Assembly (NCBI GenBank): GCA_947475525.1
Contig: CANJMI010000014.1
Coordinates: 62,001 to 126,000 of the forward strand
Direction: 5' to 3'
DNA: 64,000 nt
Source: Polyangiaceae bacterium
Lineage (GTDB): Bacteria; Myxococcota_A; Polyangia; Polyangiales; Polyangiaceae
Shown here: piece after piece, positions 24,252 through 33,647 of the stretch
How positions within the stretch are numbered: the first letter of the stretch is position 1
Layout: the number at the start of each line of letters is the position of its first letter
Notes under the pieces: model-generated
The model's input: the letters and a program-made list of their open reading frames with translations, nothing else
The model's database searches: none
What the model was told of the DNA's origin: nothing
Program-made: the position numbers and the translations under genes

Positions 24252-25913
24252 ATGTCCAAGCTCATCCTCGACTACGTTTACGACAAGGAAGCAGCCCACC
24301 CCGATCGCGTCTATCTGACGCAACCTATCGGCAACGGCGAGACCCGTGACTACACGTGGAGTCAGGTCGTTGGCGAGGCTCGACGCATGGCCGCGCACCT
24401 TCAGTCACTTGGCCTCGAGCGCGGCGACAAAATCGCGATTTTGTCGAAAAATTGCGCACATTTCTTCATGGCAGAGCTCGCCATCTGGATCGGTGGATAC
24501 ACCACCGTCGCCATCTTCCCGACCGAAAACGCCGCCACCATCGGCTACGTGCTCGGGCACAGCGAGGCCAAGGCGATCTTCATCGGCAAGCTCGACCCCA
24601 CGTGGCCGCAGCAAGAAAAGGGGATCGGCGACGGGCCAAAACGCATCGCCTTCCCGCTCGCGCCGAAGAACGACGCGCCCAAGTGGGACGACCTCGTCAA
24701 GCAGAGCAAGCCCGTCGCCGGTAGGCCCGCGCGCCAAGGCGACGACCTCGCGATGATCATCTACACCTCCGGCTCGACGGGTCAGCCGAAAGGCGTGATG
24801 CACTGCTTCGAGAACGTGACCCGCGCGACCGAAGGCATCGTCAAAGGCGTAGCTTTCGGCGCGGACGAGCGAGCCCTCTCTTACTTGCCGCTCGCACACG
24901 TCTTCGAGCGCGCCTACATCGAGTGCGCCTCCTTCGTCGCCGGCGGCCACATCTTCTTCGCCGATTCCCTCGACACCTTCGTCGCCGATCTCAAGCGCGC
25001 CAAGCCCACTTTGTTCATCTCGGTGCCGCGCCTCTGGCTCAAGTTTCAGCAAGGCGTCCTCAAGAAGATGCCACCGAAGAAGCTCGCGAACCTCCTCAAG
25101 ATCCCAATCTTGAACAAAATCATTGCGAAGAAGATCCTCACTGGGCTCGGCCTCGAACAGGTTCGCCTCGCCGGCAGCGGCTCAGCCCCGATCCCCGCGG
25201 AGCTGATCGCCTGGTACCGCCGCCTCGGCCTGAACCTTCTCGAGGGCTACGCCATGACCGAGGACTTCGCGTTCTCGCATCTCTCGTCGAAGGAAAAAAA
25301 CGCACCCGGTTACGTCGGCTCGCCCTACGAAGGCGTGCACGTGAAGCTCAGCGAGGAGGGCGAGGTGCTGATCAAATCCCCGGGGCGTCTCGTCGGCTAC
25401 TTCAAGCAGCCTGAGCTCACCGCCGAGGTGCTCACCGAGGACGGCTACTTCCGCACGGGCGACAAAGGTGAGCGCCGCTCGGACGGCCTCTTGAAACTGA
25501 CCGGCCGCGTGAAAGAGCTCTTCAAGACCGCGAAGGGCAAGTACGTCGCCCCCGCGCCTATCGAGAACCGCATCAACGAACACGAGCTCGTGGAGCTTTC
25601 ATGCGTCTCGGGCGTCGGTCAGCCCGCCGCGTTTGCGCTGCTCGTGCTCGCCGAGGACATCCGGAACAACCTGAGCGATCCGGCGACGAAAAAACGCGTC
25701 GAAGACGAGCTCGCGCCGTTTCTGAAAACCGTCAACGCGCAGCTCTCCAATTACGAACAGCTGCAGATGTTCGTCATCGCGAAAGAGCCCTGGACGGTCG
25801 AGAACGGGATGCTCACCCCGACGCTGAAGATCAAGCGCACACCGATCGAGGCGGAAGCCAAGCCACATCTCGACGCGTGGTTCGACAACAAAAAACCGAT
25901 CATCTGGGCGTGA
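24252..25913 (+). CDS. Long-chain fatty acid--CoA ligase / AMP-binding protein (FadD-type)
   Basis: A 553-residue adenylate-forming enzyme. The AMP-binding P-loop IIYTSGSTGQPKGVMH (about 168-183), LPLAHVFERAY, the GSGSAPIPAELIAWYR helix, EGYAMTED, the GYFRTGDKGE hinge and the C-terminal LKLTGRVKELFKTAKGKYVAP are all present. These are the landmarks of long-chain acyl-CoA synthetases (the eukaryote-like FAA/ACSL branch, which reads FKTAKGKYVAP). It activates fatty acids to acyl-CoA for membrane lipid synthesis or beta-oxidation. It stands alone, convergent with the efflux operon with 18 bases between. Confidence 0.9.
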   Translation: MSKLILDYVYDKEAAHPDRVYLTQPIGNGETRDYTWSQVVGEARRMAAHLQSLGLERGDKIAILSKNCAHFFMAELAIWIGGYTTVAIFPTENAATIGYVLGHSEAKAIFIGKLDPTWPQQEKGIGDGPKRIAFPLAPKNDAPKWDDLVKQSKPVAGRPARQGDDLAMIIYTSGSTGQPKGVMHCFENVTRATEGIVKGVAFGADERALSYLPLAHVFERAYIECASFVAGGHIFFADSLDTFVADLKRAKPTLFISVPRLWLKFQQGVLKKMPPKKLANLLKIPILNKIIAKKILTGLGLEQVRLAGSGSAPIPAELIAWYRRLGLNLLEGYAMTEDFAFSHLSSKEKNAPGYVGSPYEGVHVKLSEEGEVLIKSPGRLVGYFKQPELTAEVLTEDGYFRTGDKGERRSDGLLKLTGRVKELFKTAKGKYVAPAPIENRINEHELVELSCVSGVGQPAAFALLVLAEDIRNNLSDPATKKRVEDELAPFLKTVNAQLSNYEQLQMFVIAKEPWTVENGMLTPTLKIKRTPIEAEAKPHLDAWFDNKKPIIWA

Positions 25914-25931: not shown

Positions 25932-27434
25932 CTACCGAGGCTGACTCGTCGTTGACGTAGGCCCCACGAGCGCGGCCCCGTCCGTGCCCTTCCCGCTTGC
26001 AGACGCGGCATCACGCCCGACCGCATGGGCGAGGCGCGCGCGCGCGATGCGCTGATCGACCCTCGCGCCAAGGGCATCGATTCGGGCACGCGTAAGCTCA
26101 GCCTCCGCGTCCAGAAGCTCGACGCTGGTCGCGCGGCCAACCTTGAAGAGCTCACTTCGGATCCGGTAGGAATCCTCCGCCGCCTTGAGTCCACGGCTCG
26201 TGGCGCCGACCGCAAAGTCGGCTTCGCGCACCGCGGTGTAGGTGCCCGTCACTTCGGCACGGAGGCCGTCGAGAAGGGCCGAACGCTGGGCTTCGAATGA
26301 CGCCGCGCGGGCATCCACGGCCGCCCCGCCCGCAGCGCTCGCCGCCGCGTCGTTCGGCGACCAGCTGAGCCGCAACGAGACGTCCCACGTCGTGCGAAAC
26401 TCGGCGACCTGAGGAAAAATGCGCTGATTCGGGTTCGCCGTGGTCACGTTTGCGACCGCATCCAGCCGCGGCCAAAGGCCGGCAGTCGCGACGCGCTCCT
26501 GGAAGCGTTGCGCGAGGACGAGCTCACCGACGGCCTTCACCTCGAGCCGCTGGTTTCTAGCTTCCTCCCAGAGCTTCCGCAGCTCCAATCCGGAGAACGC
26601 AGGCAGCACCTCCTCGACGCTCTCTCCGAGCTCGTAAGCCTTGCCGCTCGTGTCGTGCATCAGCGAACGGAGCCGGTCCTCGGTGACGCTGACGAGGTTC
26701 TTCGTCTTCTCGACCACAAGTTCCATCGCCGCCACTTGCGACTCAACACGCGCGATGTCCGCCGGTGACGCGTGAGCCACCGCCACGCCAAGGTGGGCTT
26801 TCGTTTGCTCCAACGCGAGCGTGGCGACCACGCCCGAGAGTCGCGTGCGAAGCCAATTGTAGTAGAGCGTGCGCGCATCCACCGCGGCCTGCAAACGCGT
26901 CGCTTCCGCGTTGAACTTTGCGGCATTCGCGGCGTTCTTCGCGGACGCGTACGCCTGCGGGATGCGCAAAAACAGGTCGGTCAGCGGAACCGCGAGCGAG
27001 CCTTGGACAACTCCGCTGTCGAGGAACACGGGAAAGCGAATCGGCGAACCATCCGCCGCCACGCCGATGACCGGCTGCACGATCGGGGAGAGCCGCGTGT
27101 AGGTAGCCGCGACCGAAAAGCGCGGGAAATAACCCAACCACGCCTGCCTGACGCCGGCTTCCGCGGCCTGCACCTCGAAGTCCTTCGCGCGGGCTTCATG
27201 GCTCGTCGTCATCGCGGCTGCGGCCACCGCGTCGGCAACGAGCCCCCCCGGCACCGTCGCGAGCACGCCTTCGGGACCGCGACCCGTGCCCACCACGGGA
27301 GCCACATCATCGGCACGCGCCGCAACCACGGGAGCCACATCATCGGCACGCGCCGCAACCGAGGTCGAGACGACACCAGCAACTGCCAGGGCGCCAAAAC
27401 AAGCGTTGATCAAACCGGTATCCATTCGCCTCAC
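25932..27434 (-). CDS. TolC-family outer membrane efflux protein
   Basis: A 500-residue outer-membrane channel. The N-terminus has a signal-like stretch (LINACFGALAVAGVVSTSVAARA), then a Pro/Val linker with an 11-residue direct repeat (ARADDVAPVVA). The remainder shows two internally similar coiled-coil halves typical of TolC/OEP proteins: QAAEAGVRQAWLGYFPRFS early on and AQRFQERVATAGLWPRLDAVANV later, plus AEDSYRIRSELFKVGRATSVELLDAEAELTRAR near the end. It is the last gene of the RND operon; its start overlaps the pump gene's stop by 4 bases. Confidence 0.9.
   Translation of the reverse strand: MRRMDTGLINACFGALAVAGVVSTSVAARADDVAPVVAARADDVAPVVGTGRGPEGVLATVPGGLVADAVAAAAMTTSHEARAKDFEVQAAEAGVRQAWLGYFPRFSVAATYTRLSPIVQPVIGVAADGSPIRFPVFLDSGVVQGSLAVPLTDLFLRIPQAYASAKNAANAAKFNAEATRLQAAVDARTLYYNWLRTRLSGVVATLALEQTKAHLGVAVAHASPADIARVESQVAAMELVVEKTKNLVSVTEDRLRSLMHDTSGKAYELGESVEEVLPAFSGLELRKLWEEARNQRLEVKAVGELVLAQRFQERVATAGLWPRLDAVANVTTANPNQRIFPQVAEFRTTWDVSLRLSWSPNDAAASAAGGAAVDARAASFEAQRSALLDGLRAEVTGTYTAVREADFAVGATSRGLKAAEDSYRIRSELFKVGRATSVELLDAEAELTRARIDALGARVDQRIARARLAHAVGRDAASASGKGTDGAALVGPTSTTSQPR
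27293..27358 (-). repeat. 33-base direct tandem repeat in the TolC-family gene
   Basis: Two perfect copies of a 33-base unit (27293-27325 and 27326-27358) sit just after the signal peptide region and encode the 11-residue repeat. A recent in-frame duplication is the simplest explanation. Confidence 0.9.
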
Positions 27435-30400
27435 GAAGTCACCTGCGGGGTCGCGTCGCCGCGACGAAAGAGCTTAACAACGAAGCGGCGCGCTCCCTCG
27501 ATGGCGAGGTAGAGCGCCGGGACCACAACGAGCGAGAGCAACGTCGAGCTGATGACGCCACCGATGACCGCAATGGCCATCGGCGAGCGGAACTCGCTGC
27601 CATCACCGCGCGACACGGCCGTCGGAAGCATCCCGAGGATCATCGCGGCGCTCGTCATCAGAATCGGTCGTAAGCGCTCGGGCCCCGCCTCGAGGATGGC
27701 TTGCAACGGCGACTCTCCGTGCTCACGGACGCGCTCGATCGCTCGATCAACGAGCAAAATCGCGTTCTTTGTGACGAGACCCATCAGGAGGATTATCCCG
27801 ATGAGCGCGCCCATGGCGATGGTGTTTTTCGTGAGAAAAAGCGCCACGACCGCGCCGACGATCGCAAGCGGCAGGGTCGCCATGATCGTGAGCGGGTGGA
27901 TGAAGCTCTCGAATTGCGACGCGAGCACGATGTAGATGAAGAGCACACCGAGCAGCAGCGCGAGCCCCATGGCGCCGTTGGTCTCGGCCATCTGTTTGAT
28001 TTGGCCGTCGTATCGAAGAGCGACACCCTGCGGCAGGTCGAGCTTCGCGATGTTCGCCTGAAGCTCCTTGGTGACTTCGCCGAGCGAGCGACCACGCGGC
28101 CGTGCCCACACTCCGATGTACCGGTTGCGATCCTCGCGCTGAATCACCTGCGGCCCTTCACCCGGCTCGATGTGCGCAAGATCGCCGAGCGCGACGGGAC
28201 CCTTTGGCGACATCAACGTCGTCCTGAGAAGTGACGCGGCGGTTGCGCGATCCTCGGGGCGAAGGCGAACGCGGACAGGCACCTGGTCGTCGCCGAGGCG
28301 CAGCTTGACCGAGTCGTCTCCATCGACGGCCGTACGCATGGCCATCGCAACTTGCGCGACGGAAACGCCCTGATCCGCAGCGCGCTCGCGGTCGATCTCG
28401 ACTTGATACTCGCGTTTTCCTGGGGTGTGCTTCACCTGGATGTCGACGATGCCGGGCACCGCTCGCAGCGCCCCCGCTACCTGATCGGCTGCCTTCTCGA
28501 GGTCGCCGTAGTTCTCGCCGCGCACGTTGATCATGATCGCGGCTTGGCCCATCGCGCCTTCGATCATCTGGACGTCCTGAACGGAGACCTTCGCATCCGG
28601 AATCACTTTGGCGAGCTCACGGGTCCGGTTCTGGATTGCGACGAGGGTCGTTGTGCGCTGGTTTTTTCGCACGGTGAGGATGCGCAACCGCGCCTTGTTC
28701 GCGTCGCCGTCCGCGCCAACGGTGTTCATCACGGTGACGACGAGTTTGTCCTCGCGAATTTTATCCGCCAGCGCAAGGGTGTGTCGGGTCGTCTCTTCGA
28801 GTGAGGTGCCCGCGGGCAACTCGATCTCCAGGTTGAACTGCGCGCGGTCCTCCGGCGCTACGAAGTCCGAGCCCATCGCCCCGGTGATCGCGCCTGTACC
28901 GACGAGGCTCCCAATCGCGAGGGCACCGACCACGAGTTTGTGGCGCACGGCCCAACCGAGGATCACGCGGTAGGTTGCATCCATCCAGCGAAAGAGCGCC
29001 TCGAACGGGGCTTTGATCGCCGCAAACTTATCGACCGCGCCATGCACGATCGACTTCGAGAAGCGCGAGGAGAGCATCGGATCGAGCGTGAACGCGACGA
29101 GCAATGAGACGAGCACCGACGCGGAGACCGTGACCCCGAATTGCTTGAAAAACTGGCCGATCATCCCGTCCATGAAGGCGACCGGAAGGAACACGGCCAC
29201 CACCGTGAGGGTCGTCGCCATGACGGCGAGCGCGATCTCCTTGGTCCCCTCGAGGGCGGCCTGCATCGGCGGCACCCCCCGCTCCAGGTGCTTGAAGATG
29301 TTTTCGCGAACGACCACCGCGTCATCGATTAGCAGGCCGATGGCCAACGACAACCCGAGCAGGGTCATCATGTTCAGCGTGTAGCCGAGCACGTACATCA
29401 CGAAGAAGGTGGCGATGACGCTCGTGGGCAGCGCGACGGCGCTTATCAGCGTGGAGCGAAGATCGAGCATGAAAAACAGGATGATCAGGATCGCCATCGC
29501 TCCGCCGAAGAGGATCGCCACCTCAACTTCATGCGCGTTCTCCTTGATGTAATCGGCCTGGTTCGAGATCAGCGCCGCGCGCATCTCGTCCGGCCATGAC
29601 TTCTCCATCTTCTCGACTTTGAGGCGAATGCCCTCGGCCACGGTCATCGTGTTGCGCCCGGACTGCTTGACCACCTCGAACGCCACGGCTTCCTGACCGT
29701 TGACGAAGATGCGTGATTTCATCTCCTCGAACGAGTCATCCACCGTGCCCACTTCACGCAGGCGCACGGCCGCGCCATCGGACTTGGTGGCGACGACCAG
29801 CTCCCGCAGGTCCTCGACGCCGAGCAAATCTCCGACCGTTCGCACGGCGATGTCCTGCGTACCGAGGGTGAGTTTACCGGCTGGGACGGTGAGTCCACCC
29901 GTGCGGAGCGCGTGAACGATGCGGTCCGGTGACAGGTGCAGCGCGTCGATGCGCGCTTGATCGAGGTTCACATGGAACTCGCGGTCCGCGCCGCCGTTCA
30001 CGGAAACCTTCGCGACGCCATCGACCTGCTCGAGCTCGGGGCGCACCACATCATCGACGAATTTCCGAAGCTCATTCAAGCTGCGGTTGCCGCGCACCGT
30101 GTAGACGATCACCGGCGCGGCCGTCGTGTCGATGCGACCGACGCTCGGCTCGAGCACGTCGGCCGGCAGCTTCATGCGGTTTCGCGCCACGCGTTCGCGG
30201 ACCTGGGTGGTCGCCTCCTCGATGTTCACGCCGAGCTTGAAGAGCGCGATGACGGTGGAGACGCCCTCTCGGGAATTGCTCATCACCCGATCGATGCCGT
30301 TGAGCGAGACGATGTCGTCTTCGAGGGGCCTCGTGACGAGGCTCTCGACCTCGGCTGGCGCGGCACCCGGATAGACGACGGTGACGGTCACGACCGGAAA

Positions 30401-30523
30401 GGAGACATCCGGAAAGAGATCGGTCCCGAGGCGCGAGAGCCCCATGATCCCGAGCACGATGAAGCCGAAGGCCACCATCACCGTGAACACCGGACGCTTT
30501 ACCGCGATCGCCGAGATGCTCAC
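27431..30523 (-). CDS. RND efflux transporter permease (HAE1/AcrB-like)
   Basis: A 1030-residue inner-membrane proton antiporter. It begins with the canonical AVKRPVFTVMVAFGFIVLGIMGL and has GTDLFPDVSFPVVTV. TM4 carries SLAIGLLIDDAVVVREN with the paired aspartates used for proton transfer. Two large periplasmic loops separate the two six-helix halves, and TM10 has GLVTKNAILLVDRAIERVREHG. The length and the paired-Asp motif fit the multidrug HAE1 family and not heavy-metal CusA. It works with the adaptor and TolC-type channel encoded in the same operon, but the substrates cannot be told from sequence. Confidence 0.94.
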   Translation of the reverse strand: MSISAIAVKRPVFTVMVAFGFIVLGIMGLSRLGTDLFPDVSFPVVTVTVVYPGAAPAEVESLVTRPLEDDIVSLNGIDRVMSNSREGVSTVIALFKLGVNIEEATTQVRERVARNRMKLPADVLEPSVGRIDTTAAPVIVYTVRGNRSLNELRKFVDDVVRPELEQVDGVAKVSVNGGADREFHVNLDQARIDALHLSPDRIVHALRTGGLTVPAGKLTLGTQDIAVRTVGDLLGVEDLRELVVATKSDGAAVRLREVGTVDDSFEEMKSRIFVNGQEAVAFEVVKQSGRNTMTVAEGIRLKVEKMEKSWPDEMRAALISNQADYIKENAHEVEVAILFGGAMAILIILFFMLDLRSTLISAVALPTSVIATFFVMYVLGYTLNMMTLLGLSLAIGLLIDDAVVVRENIFKHLERGVPPMQAALEGTKEIALAVMATTLTVVAVFLPVAFMDGMIGQFFKQFGVTVSASVLVSLLVAFTLDPMLSSRFSKSIVHGAVDKFAAIKAPFEALFRWMDATYRVILGWAVRHKLVVGALAIGSLVGTGAITGAMGSDFVAPEDRAQFNLEIELPAGTSLEETTRHTLALADKIREDKLVVTVMNTVGADGDANKARLRILTVRKNQRTTTLVAIQNRTRELAKVIPDAKVSVQDVQMIEGAMGQAAIMINVRGENYGDLEKAADQVAGALRAVPGIVDIQVKHTPGKREYQVEIDRERAADQGVSVAQVAMAMRTAVDGDDSVKLRLGDDQVPVRVRLRPEDRATAASLLRTTLMSPKGPVALGDLAHIEPGEGPQVIQREDRNRYIGVWARPRGRSLGEVTKELQANIAKLDLPQGVALRYDGQIKQMAETNGAMGLALLLGVLFIYIVLASQFESFIHPLTIMATLPLAIVGAVVALFLTKNTIAMGALIGIILLMGLVTKNAILLVDRAIERVREHGESPLQAILEAGPERLRPILMTSAAMILGMLPTAVSRGDGSEFRSPMAIAVIGGVISSTLLSLVVVPALYLAIEGARRFVVKLFRRGDATPQVTS

Positions 30524-31680
30524 GGCCGCCTCCCGTCCGAGATGCTGGTACCGCGAACGGCGTCCCCTTCGTGCAGCGCCTGGCCCGCCGCGAGGATCAC
30601 GTCATCCTTCTCGGTCACGCCAGCTCGAACGTAGAGCGCGCCGTCTTCACCCGTCGTGAAGACGAGGTGCGCCGTGGCGGCTTTGCCCTCGTGAATCAGC
30701 CACACTTCATCCTGCGAGCCCGCCTTCAACGCGGCCGCGGGGAGCTTCAGGACACGGCTCTCGCTTGGGGCCGTGATGTGGGCGCGAACGAAGACGCCGG
30801 CGAGGAGCGGCGCGCTCGGATCGTTTGGAATTTCCGCGTAAATTGGTACGCGACGGGTCTGCGCGTCGACCGACGGAAACACCACCGTGACCTTGCCGAG
30901 GAGCTTGCGCTCACCTTCGAGTTCGACCGTCGCACCGAGGACGATGTTCGCGACGTCCGAGGGATGCACGGTCGAGGCGAGGCGAAGCGCGGAGGTGTCC
31001 TCCAAACGGAAAAGCGGCGTGCCCGGCATCACGACCGCGCCCGCGGCGCTCGGGGCCTCCACGACCGTTCCTGCGAACGGAGCGATGAGACGGGTGTTCG
31101 CCACGGCCACGCTCGACGCCGCCGACTGCGCCTTCGCGGTATCGAGCCTGGCCCGCGCACCGTCGAGGCGCTGCTGCTCGCCGCGGTACTCGGTGGGTGA
31201 GATCGCCGACTGGTCGACGAGCTTCTTCGAGCGCTGCTCGTTTTCCTCGGAGATCGAGACGTCGAGCTCCGCCGCCTTGACCATCGCGAGCGCCGTGCCG
31301 GCCTGCGCCGTGGCATCGAGTGGATCGAGCAGCGCGAGGAGCTGCCCTGCCGTGACCTTGTCGCCGAGCGTCACGGCGACAGTTGCAAGCCGGCCCGGCT
31401 GCTTGAAGCTGAGTGCCGTCCTGCGGATCGGGGCGACCTCGCCCGTGACCTGGACGACCGCCTGCCAGGTCCACGGCGACGGACGCACGCTCTTGACTTC
31501 GCGCGGTCCGCCCGTGGCTGCCACCACCGACGCGTTCGCAGCCGTCACCGCGTTGCTGTCGGCCTTCGCTTCGACAAAGCGTTTGCCGATGGCCCCGAAC
31601 AGCAGCAACACGCCGACCCCACCAACGACGAGACCCAAACGAACCCCACCCTGCCCTTTTTTCACAACTGAATCCGACAT
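30520..31680 (-). CDS. RND periplasmic adaptor (membrane fusion protein)
   Basis: A 386-residue adaptor. The frame is open further upstream into the regulator gene, but the ATG at 31680, overlapping the regulator stop by one base, gives a proper N-terminus: KKGQGG then a single membrane anchor GLVVGGVGVLLLFGA. The lipoyl/barrel-sandwich part shows GRLATVAVTLGDKVTAGQLLALLDPLD and, after a short coiled coil, NTRLIAPFAGTVVEAPSAAGAVVMPGTPLFRLED. A beta-barrel and membrane-proximal domain follow. It bridges the RND pump and the TolC-family channel. Confidence 0.93.
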   Translation of the reverse strand: MSDSVVKKGQGGVRLGLVVGGVGVLLLFGAIGKRFVEAKADSNAVTAANASVVAATGGPREVKSVRPSPWTWQAVVQVTGEVAPIRRTALSFKQPGRLATVAVTLGDKVTAGQLLALLDPLDATAQAGTALAMVKAAELDVSISEENEQRSKKLVDQSAISPTEYRGEQQRLDGARARLDTAKAQSAASSVAVANTRLIAPFAGTVVEAPSAAGAVVMPGTPLFRLEDTSALRLASTVHPSDVANIVLGATVELEGERKLLGKVTVVFPSVDAQTRRVPIYAEIPNDPSAPLLAGVFVRAHITAPSESRVLKLPAAALKAGSQDEVWLIHEGKAATAHLVFTTGEDGALYVRAGVTEKDDVILAAGQALHEGDAVRGTSISDGRRP

Positions 31681-32399
31681 CAACCGCTTCTCCGACGTGT
31701 GAGGTTGCTCTTTTTTGCGACGCTCTGCTTGGCGACGCTCTTCTTGGTGACGCTCTTTTTGGTGACGCGCGTCTTGCCAGGGGCTCGGACGGTGCCCACC
31801 CCGTGCAGGAACACATCCCGCACGGCCTCGACCTGGTCGACGAACCACGCCGTAGGGCGCTCGGTCATCCACTGAAGGTGAAAGGCTTGCGTGACAGCCA
31901 AGTAGACCAAGGCGGCATCCTTCGCGCTGAGGCGACCGACACGCGGGGAGCCCGCCGCATCGGCGAACCATGCCGTGAGGAGCGCCATCAACCGCTGATA
32001 CCCTTCGGGCTGCTGAGGGATCGCCGTGGACGGATGAGGCTCGGGCGGCGTCACCTGTGCCGACAAGAGGACTCGGAAGGTATCGGTGCGACGATCGGCG
32101 AGCGCGAACTGGCGCCGCATCAGTGCCTCGAGCCGTCCGCCAAAACGCTTCGCAACGGGAGCGTCGTCGACGAGCGTGGCGATGATCTCCTCGAAAGTTC
32201 GCGCGAGGAGCGCCTCGTAGAGTTCCTCTTTGCCAGCAAAGTAATTGTAAAAAGCGGGCGCCGTGTACCCCGCCTCGACCGCGATCTCCTTCATCGTCGC
32301 GGCGGCGAAGCCCTTTTTCGCGAACACCCGCGTCGCCGCATCGACCATCGCGTCGCGCACGGCATTCGCCACTTCGGGGGTTCTCGGGCGCTTCGACAT
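31680..32399 (-). CDS. TetR/AcrR family regulator of the efflux operon
   Basis: A 239-residue repressor. The N-terminal helix-turn-helix is typical: VRDAMVDAATRVFAKKGFAAATMKEIAVEAGYTAPAFYNYFAGKEELYEALL (about 10-60). The ligand-binding domain follows. The last 30 residues are an unusual basic extension of repeated KKSV/AKQSV units ending RRRSG, encoded by 15-base near-repeats. It is the first gene of the efflux operon and overlaps the adaptor gene by one base. With the palindrome in its own promoter this implies autoregulation relieved by a pump substrate. Confidence 0.93.
   Translation of the reverse strand: MSKRPRTPEVANAVRDAMVDAATRVFAKKGFAAATMKEIAVEAGYTAPAFYNYFAGKEELYEALLARTFEEIIATLVDDAPVAKRFGGRLEALMRRQFALADRRTDTFRVLLSAQVTPPEPHPSTAIPQQPEGYQRLMALLTAWFADAAGSPRVGRLSAKDAALVYLAVTQAFHLQWMTERPTAWFVDQVEAVRDVFLHGVGTVRAPGKTRVTKKSVTKKSVAKQSVAKKSNLTRRRSG
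31695..31775 (-). repeat. 15-base near-repeats encoding the basic tail of the TetR regulator
   Basis: Four units resembling GACGCTCTTCTTGGT (plus-strand reading) encode the KKSVT, KKSVA, KQSVA and KKS tail. The units differ by a few bases, so the repeat is older than the perfect rsmI repeat. Confidence 0.7.
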
Positions 32400-32438
32400 T
32401 GAAAAAAAAGGAACGGCTTAAAAGGTGAACGCACGTTA

Positions 32439-32466
32439 ACCTTAACGATCGTTAACCAAGCGTCAA
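32439..32466 (-). promoter_or_regulatory. Promoter and palindromic operator of the tetR-RND operon
   Basis: On the minus strand, -35 TTGACG (32466-32461), a 16-base spacer and -10 TAAGGT (32444-32439). The perfect 14-base palindrome TTAACGATCGTTAA (32442-32455) fills the spacer and enters the -10, which is the classic site for a TetR-type repressor to block RNA polymerase. A second GTTAAC lies next to it at 32435-32440. The site is 40 bases before the regulator start and could also affect the divergent oxygenase gene. Confidence 0.65.
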
Positions 32467-32546: not shown

Positions 32547-33647
32547 ATGTCCGATCCGAGCATTCCCGTCGTCTGTCTCAACGATGTCTCCAGCCACGAC
32601 GAGGCCGCACGCATGCGTGCAAGCACCGCCCTCCGCGAGGCCTTCGGTACCTACGGGCTCGTCTACGTCACGGGACACAAGGTCAGCCGCGATGCGCTGC
32701 GGCCTTTCTACGACGCGTTCCGAAGTTTCGTTGCAAAACCCGTCGAGCAGAAGACCGCGTGCCGCCGAGCCTCCGATTGGTACCAGCGCGGCTGGACCCC
32801 AGCGAACACGGAGACCGCCGTCGCCGCGGGCGGTCAACCGGACTTCAAAGAATGCTACTTCGCGTCGCCTTCCCCGCGCGATGCCTCCTACGCCGCCCAG
32901 TATCCGGAGCTCTATCCGGAGAACGTCTGGCCCGAGCCGCCAGTGCCCGGTTTCAAGGAAGAGTACCTGCAACTCGGCACGTCCCTGCACGAGGCCGGGC
33001 TCACCTTACTCATCGCAGCGGCGCGCGCCCTCGACCTCCCCGAAGACACGTTCACGCGGCGAATCGCTGGCGGTGCGCACGTGACGCGCGTGCTCGACTA
33101 CTTGCCCCTCGACGCTTCGCAAGTGGGCTCGGGCATCTTGTGGGGCGAAGAGCACACGGACTTCAATCTTCTGACGCTCCTGCCGGGCGGGCAGTTCTAC
33201 AGCCCCGAAGGCGAGCCTTCCGCGCGCCCCGACGACCAGAGCGGGCTCTACCTTCGGACGCGCGCCACCCCGGAATTTCCACAAGGGCGTCGCGTGCGCG
33301 GAGCCGTTCCCGAAGGCTGCCTCGTCGCCCAAGTGGGGCAACAACTCGAGATCCTCACCGGTGGCAGGTTTCTCGCTACGCCACACGAGGTCACGGCTCC
33401 CGGCGTCCCCGGTTGGTCGCGGCTGTCTTCCGCGCATTTCGTTCACATGGCCCCGAACGAGGTGTTGTTTCCGCTCGAGCCGTTCCGTGACCCCGACGCT
33501 GTGGCCGCGTACGCGCCCCCCGTTCTCGCGGGGACTTACGCCATCAAGACGCTCGTGGACATCGGCCTCGCGCCCCGTGCAGCGCTCGATAAGCTAGGTT
33601 ATCGTCATTACGACAGGCTCGACGCCATGAAGTCGGCCGAGCGTTGA
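32547..33647 (+). CDS. 2-oxoglutarate/Fe(II)-dependent oxygenase (isopenicillin N synthase family)
   Basis: A 366-residue protein from the ATG at 32547; an in-frame GTG at 32529 is an alternative. The N-terminal DIOX_N region (IPVVCLNDVSSHDE, GLVYVTGHKVS) is followed by the double-stranded beta-helix with Fe(II) ligands H203 and D205 (EEHTDFNLLTLL) and H280 (ATPHEV). RLSSAHFVH holds the RxS that binds 2-oxoglutarate. Such enzymes hydroxylate or desaturate small molecules; plants use them in hormone metabolism and bacteria in antibiotic pathways. The substrate is unknown. It diverges from the efflux operon, sharing a 147-base region. Confidence 0.88.
   Translation: MSDPSIPVVCLNDVSSHDEAARMRASTALREAFGTYGLVYVTGHKVSRDALRPFYDAFRSFVAKPVEQKTACRRASDWYQRGWTPANTETAVAAGGQPDFKECYFASPSPRDASYAAQYPELYPENVWPEPPVPGFKEEYLQLGTSLHEAGLTLLIAAARALDLPEDTFTRRIAGGAHVTRVLDYLPLDASQVGSGILWGEEHTDFNLLTLLPGGQFYSPEGEPSARPDDQSGLYLRTRATPEFPQGRRVRGAVPEGCLVAQVGQQLEILTGGRFLATPHEVTAPGVPGWSRLSSAHFVHMAPNEVLFPLEPFRDPDAVAAYAPPVLAGTYAIKTLVDIGLAPRAALDKLGYRHYDRLDAMKSAER

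Follow-up and report, generated by a model that had tools for sequence, protein, structure and literature searches.

Paired candidate operator over the putative promoter of a TetR-type regulator and RND efflux pump operon in a Polyangiaceae bacterium

How is an efflux pump operon controlled when a TetR-type gene heads it and a palindrome lies within its apparent promoter, and does the oxygenase gene that diverges from it share in that control? The window, i.e., the whole stretch of 64,000 nucleotides that was analysed, holds such a locus. The reading favoured here, to which we assign a probability of about 0.8 on the basis of sequence, is a local autoregulated operon in which a TetR-type repressor would act at a paired operator lying over its own promoter. 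The genes concerned are:

31680..32399, minus strand: tetR-type repressor gene (putative), first in the operon, 239 amino acids, Pfam TetR_N
30520..31680, minus strand: mfp, periplasmic adaptor, TIGR01730 RND_mfp at 190 bits (cutoff 94.9)
27431..30523, minus strand: rnd, efflux permease carrying a DD pair, ACR_tran E 1e-253
25932..27434, minus strand: omf, TolC-type outer-membrane channel, OEP E 4.4e-27

The mfp ATG overlaps the tetR stop (TGATG), the rnd GTG that of mfp (GTGA) and the omf GTG that of rnd (also GTGA). With overlaps at every one of these junctions in the window, the four genes are likely to be on one transcript, and the placing of the repressor gene first in an earlier note on this DNA holds in silico, as a TetR-family gene heads a four-gene RND operon. 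What sort of pump is it? The best PDB relative of the permease is MdtB (E 5.6e-129), with CmeB and AcrB also matched, and in its segment LIDDAVVVREN the DD is at residues 400-401. A DD pair in the proton-relay segment, as opposed to the heavy-metal motif, marks the HAE type of RND pump, and here permease, adaptor and channel occur together, in what the overlaps point to as one operon, along with the DD pair. Convergent with the pump operon, and 18 bp from omf, is a gene for a fadD-type AMP-binding ligase (24252-25913); in G003, a genome of the same genus, an 82%-identical fadD-type gene is on the same side of omf but 6,130 bp off.

Upstream of tetR the following elements can be discerned:

32466-32461, minus strand: -35-like TTGACG, read directly, its TTGAC part invariant in three species
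32460-32445, minus strand: spacer of 16 bases between TTGACG and TAAGGT
32444-32439, minus strand: -10-like TAAGGT, at the joint of O1 and O2, a weak consensus match
32442-32455, no strand: candidate operator box O1, TTAACGATCGTTAA, exact match, conserved
32426-32439, no strand: candidate operator box O2, TGAACGCACGTTAA, from a repeat search, conserved

Direct reading of the minus strand upstream of the TetR-type gene bears out the TTGACG, 16 bases, TAAGGT arrangement that had been proposed. TAAGGT agrees with TATAAT at 3 of 6 bases, its counterparts being TAAGTT in G001 (also of the genus) and GAAGGT in G003, and a scan at a consensus threshold returned no promoter-like site on either strand in either direction. 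O1 is a perfect 14-bp palindrome. It had been described as filling the spacer and, while it is located as described, the wording was slightly loose: 11 of the 16 spacer bases are spanned together with three bases, half, of the -10. Similarly, the idea of an operator within the promoter stands in silico, in that there is a conserved candidate operator over it, but a single box was an incomplete description, O2 having been missed. The centre of O2 is 16 bp from that of O1, on the tetR side, and in the repeat search the two jointly form a larger inverted repeat. The tetR ATG is at 32399, 39 bases beyond the -10. By eye, no ribosome-binding site is evident ahead of tetR (32400-32425 in the window) in the three species, an absence that may keep the repressor scarce.

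What would such an arrangement do? Repressor dimers would sit on the two 14-bp boxes, O1 covering the greater part of the spacer plus three bases of the -10, and O2 beginning on the final -10 base and extending over the site at which transcription would be expected to start. With the boxes occupied, RNA polymerase would be excluded, and both repressor and pump kept low. A small ligand, probably a substrate of the pump or a related metabolite, would enter the helical domain and lower the affinity for DNA, on which regulator and pump would rise jointly, and export of the ligand would allow repression to return. That the repressor binds, fills both boxes, represses and answers to a ligand, and that the promoter is active, we infer from the letters of the DNA. 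As a Gram-negative pump operon it would be a clear and ordinary example of a well-known mode of control, to which O2 is added; no general view is altered by it, and what it offers is a well-delimited candidate repressor-operator pair from a little-studied lineage.

How much weight can a palindrome bear? Perfect 14-bp palindromes are not rare: the window has 13, against a mean of 7.85 in 20 mononucleotide shuffles, and when the 147-bp intergenic stretch was itself shuffled, 123 of 20,000 shuffles held one. Within the window the O1 pattern with up to 3 mismatches is matched 3 times where 0.67 is expected, a count attained by 3 of 100 shuffles. Across the 5.15-Mb genome O1 is the sole site at up to 2 mismatches, whereas the control, the same pattern read backwards, has 5 matches; taken with that control, the uniqueness points to a small regulon and not to site enrichment. 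Stronger evidence for the boxes than these chance counts comes from their conservation in two related species.

For that, relatives of tetR were sought in 59 related genomes and in 183 genomes of the order. Those above 60% identity occur, across both sets, only in G000, G001 and G003, which are of one genus, the orthologues being 70% identical in G001 and 67% in G003. Matches of any kind at E up to 1e-18 are found in 8 of the 183 order genomes, and a search of plasmid records gave 97 with a match, every one below 60% identity. Gene order in G003 is tetR-mfp-rnd-omf with the divergent oxygenase and prfC, and in G001 it is tetR-mfp-rnd with oxygenase and prfC, the contig ending inside rnd. Two further members of the genus, G002 (67% complete) and G004 (85%), have a pump at 58-59% identity, but in neither was an orthologous tetR or the paired box found. 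The footprint sample comprises three species of the one genus, and in it 28 of the 41 columns from TTGAC through the end of O2 are invariant, compared with 31 of the remaining 106 intergenic columns. The Fisher P of 2.6e-5 for that comparison is optimistic as the block was picked after looking, and hence a sliding scan was added: the block is the best 41-column stretch (28 invariant columns, tied only by its own one-base shifts, the best elsewhere being 20). In all three species TTGAC lies at the same distance from the boxes.

Could the palindromes nevertheless serve another regulator, or a structural role in the DNA, with tetR acting elsewhere? In its favour, the tie between this TetR protein and these boxes is an indirect one, through sequence, and yet the company that the boxes keep makes it very unlikely. 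The paired box (up to 2 mismatches) and tetR at more than 60% identity are in the same 3 of the 183 order genomes, always adjacent, and the core of the box agrees with a known TetR-type operator, that of PaaR, described below. In a phylum sample of 377 genomes, which overlaps the order set and is without G001, paired box and tetR are in the same 2 genomes, always at this locus. The paired pattern read backwards, as a control, was matched in 1 of the 183 genomes, G037. With the paired box marking only this operon in the genomes searched, the regulator, in the autoregulated operon that we favour, looks dedicated to one pump.

What kind of regulator would it be? Its match to TetR_N (PF00440) scores 60.8 bits against a cutoff of 24 (E 1.1e-16), and an AlphaFold model from 30 sequences is all-helical, with nine helices and a mean pLDDT of 86.5; confidence is good for the greater part of residues 1-200, residues 121-130 being at 67. 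An N-terminal helix-turn-helix domain and a predicted all-helical two-domain fold are as expected of the TetR family. Most of the top 50 entries from VIA-align 2 (Z 15.0-19.4) bear titles that name a transcriptional regulator, TetR-type or other. In the lead are five Bacillus FadR entries (5gp9, 5gpa, 5gpc, 3whb and 3whc), at Z 18.3-19.4 over 184-188 residues, and an untitled regulator, 1vi0, at 18.7; others are at 17.2 or below, MtrR reaching 16.2, AcrR 16.0, SaFadR of S. acidocaldarius 15.4 and TtgR 15.3. By predicted fold Bacillus FadR is two to three Z units ahead of the efflux repressors. However, its identity with the window regulator is 17-18%, and the FadR family score is far under cutoff (NF053878, 32.6 against 200). 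Moreover, when a sequence profile of the regulator and four relatives was searched in the PDB, the scores were TtgR 63 bits, MtrR 56 and FadR 46, the reverse of the fold order, which argues against a FadR-like reading, as does the low Z of SaFadR; the PaaR box, taken up below, is in its favour. Also below their NCBIfam cutoffs are MtrR (50.6 against 280) and AcrR (32.6 against 271).

The best NCBIfam match is FasR, though at 52.7 bits it is far under the cutoff of 330, and FasR, which is also among the nearest predicted folds, is an activator in the extract of PMC7382501. Is the window regulator then an activator, or a dual regulator, of the operon and not a simple repressor? That is very unlikely given that O1 and O2 both overlap the core promoter. 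Activator sites are usually upstream of the -35. The regulator, which we continue to regard as a probable repressor, ends in a lysine-rich, repeated basic tail (residues 204-239; 31683-31790), with 13 K/R and zero D/E in 36 residues. Those of the two orthologues are different in sequence and K/R-rich too (9/36 and 13/45). The tail may add non-specific DNA affinity.

To which known systems, as extracts of the papers cited here describe them, is the proposed one akin? For the box itself there is PaaR (TTHA0973) of Thermus thermophilus, a TetR-type repressor concerned with phenylacetate degradation, whose effector is phenylacetyl-CoA and whose homology-derived box is CNAACGNNCGTTNG (PMC6651687, PMC9493321). 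The core of the window boxes, AACGNNCGTT, is the centre of that box, though the selection-derived PaaR consensus, AACnAACGTTnGTT, departs in the middle, and the two systems are likened by box core alone. For placement there is PA3973 of Pseudomonas aeruginosa, whose own promoter has two 14-bp (pseudo)palindromes flanking or overlying its predicted -10; the boxes are, however, 11 bp apart as against 2 bp in the window, and of other sequence (PMC9736018). For the circuit as a whole there is SmeT of Stenotrophomonas maltophilia, which is TetR-type, represses both the RND pump SmeDEF and itself, blocks polymerase and is released by ligand, but has one pseudopalindromic region for the smeT and smeDEF promoter regions (PMC3128119), whereas regulator and pump in the window appear to be on one shared transcript. 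PmeR of Pseudomonas syringae, the TetR-type autorepressor of the RND system MexAB-OprM, has two palindromic sites and gives two gel-shift complexes; it differs in that its sites overlap and pmeR is divergent from the pump (PMC12421961). RaaS (Rv1219c) of Mycobacterium tuberculosis is an efflux-pump regulator with DNA binding responsive to oleoyl-CoA, but the pumps are ATP-dependent, and the likeness is drawn from description (PMC4155686). In the QacR/CprB type two dimers bind overlapping palindromes cooperatively, as dimers of dimers (PMC6018408), to be compared with two side-by-side boxes, centres 16 bp apart, in the window.

What might the ligand be? The PaaR-box core, together with a predicted fold nearest to FadR, leads to the testable guess of a CoA-thioester or lipid. 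A common fold or box does not mean a common ligand. A fuller version, in which the regulator would be a CoA-thioester or fatty-acid sensor driving an RND pump via a genus-specific paired operator, is quite unlikely; if true, the substrate exported would be the cell's own lipid or aromatic acid and not a foreign drug. The fadD-type neighbour was also considered as support for a lipid ligand, but its distance from omf, 18 bp here, is 6,130 bp in G003, and this makes it weak support.

There remains the gene on the other side of the boxes:

32547..33647, plus strand: divergent 2OG-Fe(II) oxygenase gene, DIOX_N E 2.7e-17, 2OG-FeII_Oxy E 1.3e-5

Its product has HxD at 203 and RxS at 292. Might O1 and O2 also govern this gene, so that pump and oxygenase would be one regulon? 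The divergent order of tetR and oxygenase is retained in all three operator-bearing genomes, and in Streptomyces, according to an extract of PMC3511530, 5 of 5 tested TetR regulators within 200 bp of a divergent neighbour repressed it, a range that takes in the tetR-oxygenase gap of 147 bp in the window and of 141 bp in G003, but not that of 249 bp in G001. Against co-control, the oxygenase is in 54 of the 183 order genomes (E up to 1e-40) and the orthologous regulator in 3. Then there is G029, with an 82%-identical oxygenase and neither the orthologous regulator nor the paired box; in the 15 kb taken from it, no relative of tetR, the pump genes or prfC was found. Across the window, G001, G003 and G029, the 60 bp ahead of the oxygenase ATG have 15 invariant columns, and when the G029 stretch was shuffled the mean was 9.6, with 1 of 100 shuffles reaching 15, all of which suggests that the oxygenase has a leader of its own. 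No conserved oxygenase-directed promoter was seen by eye in the intergenic alignment; the promoter scan, being empty in both directions, does not discriminate for or against one. With the oxygenase far commoner than the regulator, and its leader partly kept in the operator-less G029, co-control looks weaker, and we consider it unlikely on balance, if by no means fanciful. In the autoregulated pump operon that we prefer, the oxygenase is probably a neighbour outside the circuit, and so a divergent neighbour is not to be assumed co-controlled.

Is the single box core used more widely? Of the 42 loci of homologues entered, four rows were orthologues (L004 and L032 being one locus), and L015, L022, L026, L040 and L041 had no row and were left out. 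Within 150 bp upstream of the 33 distant TetR homologues (24-30% identity), AACGNNCGTT occurs at 3; the half-site background in the same 33 has a mean of 0.11 over all 256, and CGCG likewise reaches 3. It was absent from 4 of 4 additional loci, L085-L088. Wider use of the single box is suggestive only. In G058, G077 and G009, AACGNNCGTT was not found in the 150 bp upstream of distant TetR genes near RND genes, so that the box is not general for TetR-RND pairs. For two of the three box-bearing homologues, the surrounding DNA (16 kb at L044, 14 kb at L081) showed no relative of the window pump. At L081 (6130-6861, G120) the TetR gene is 29% identical and has upstream of it TTGACG and then, closely, GAACGAACGTTC, a layout like that in the window.
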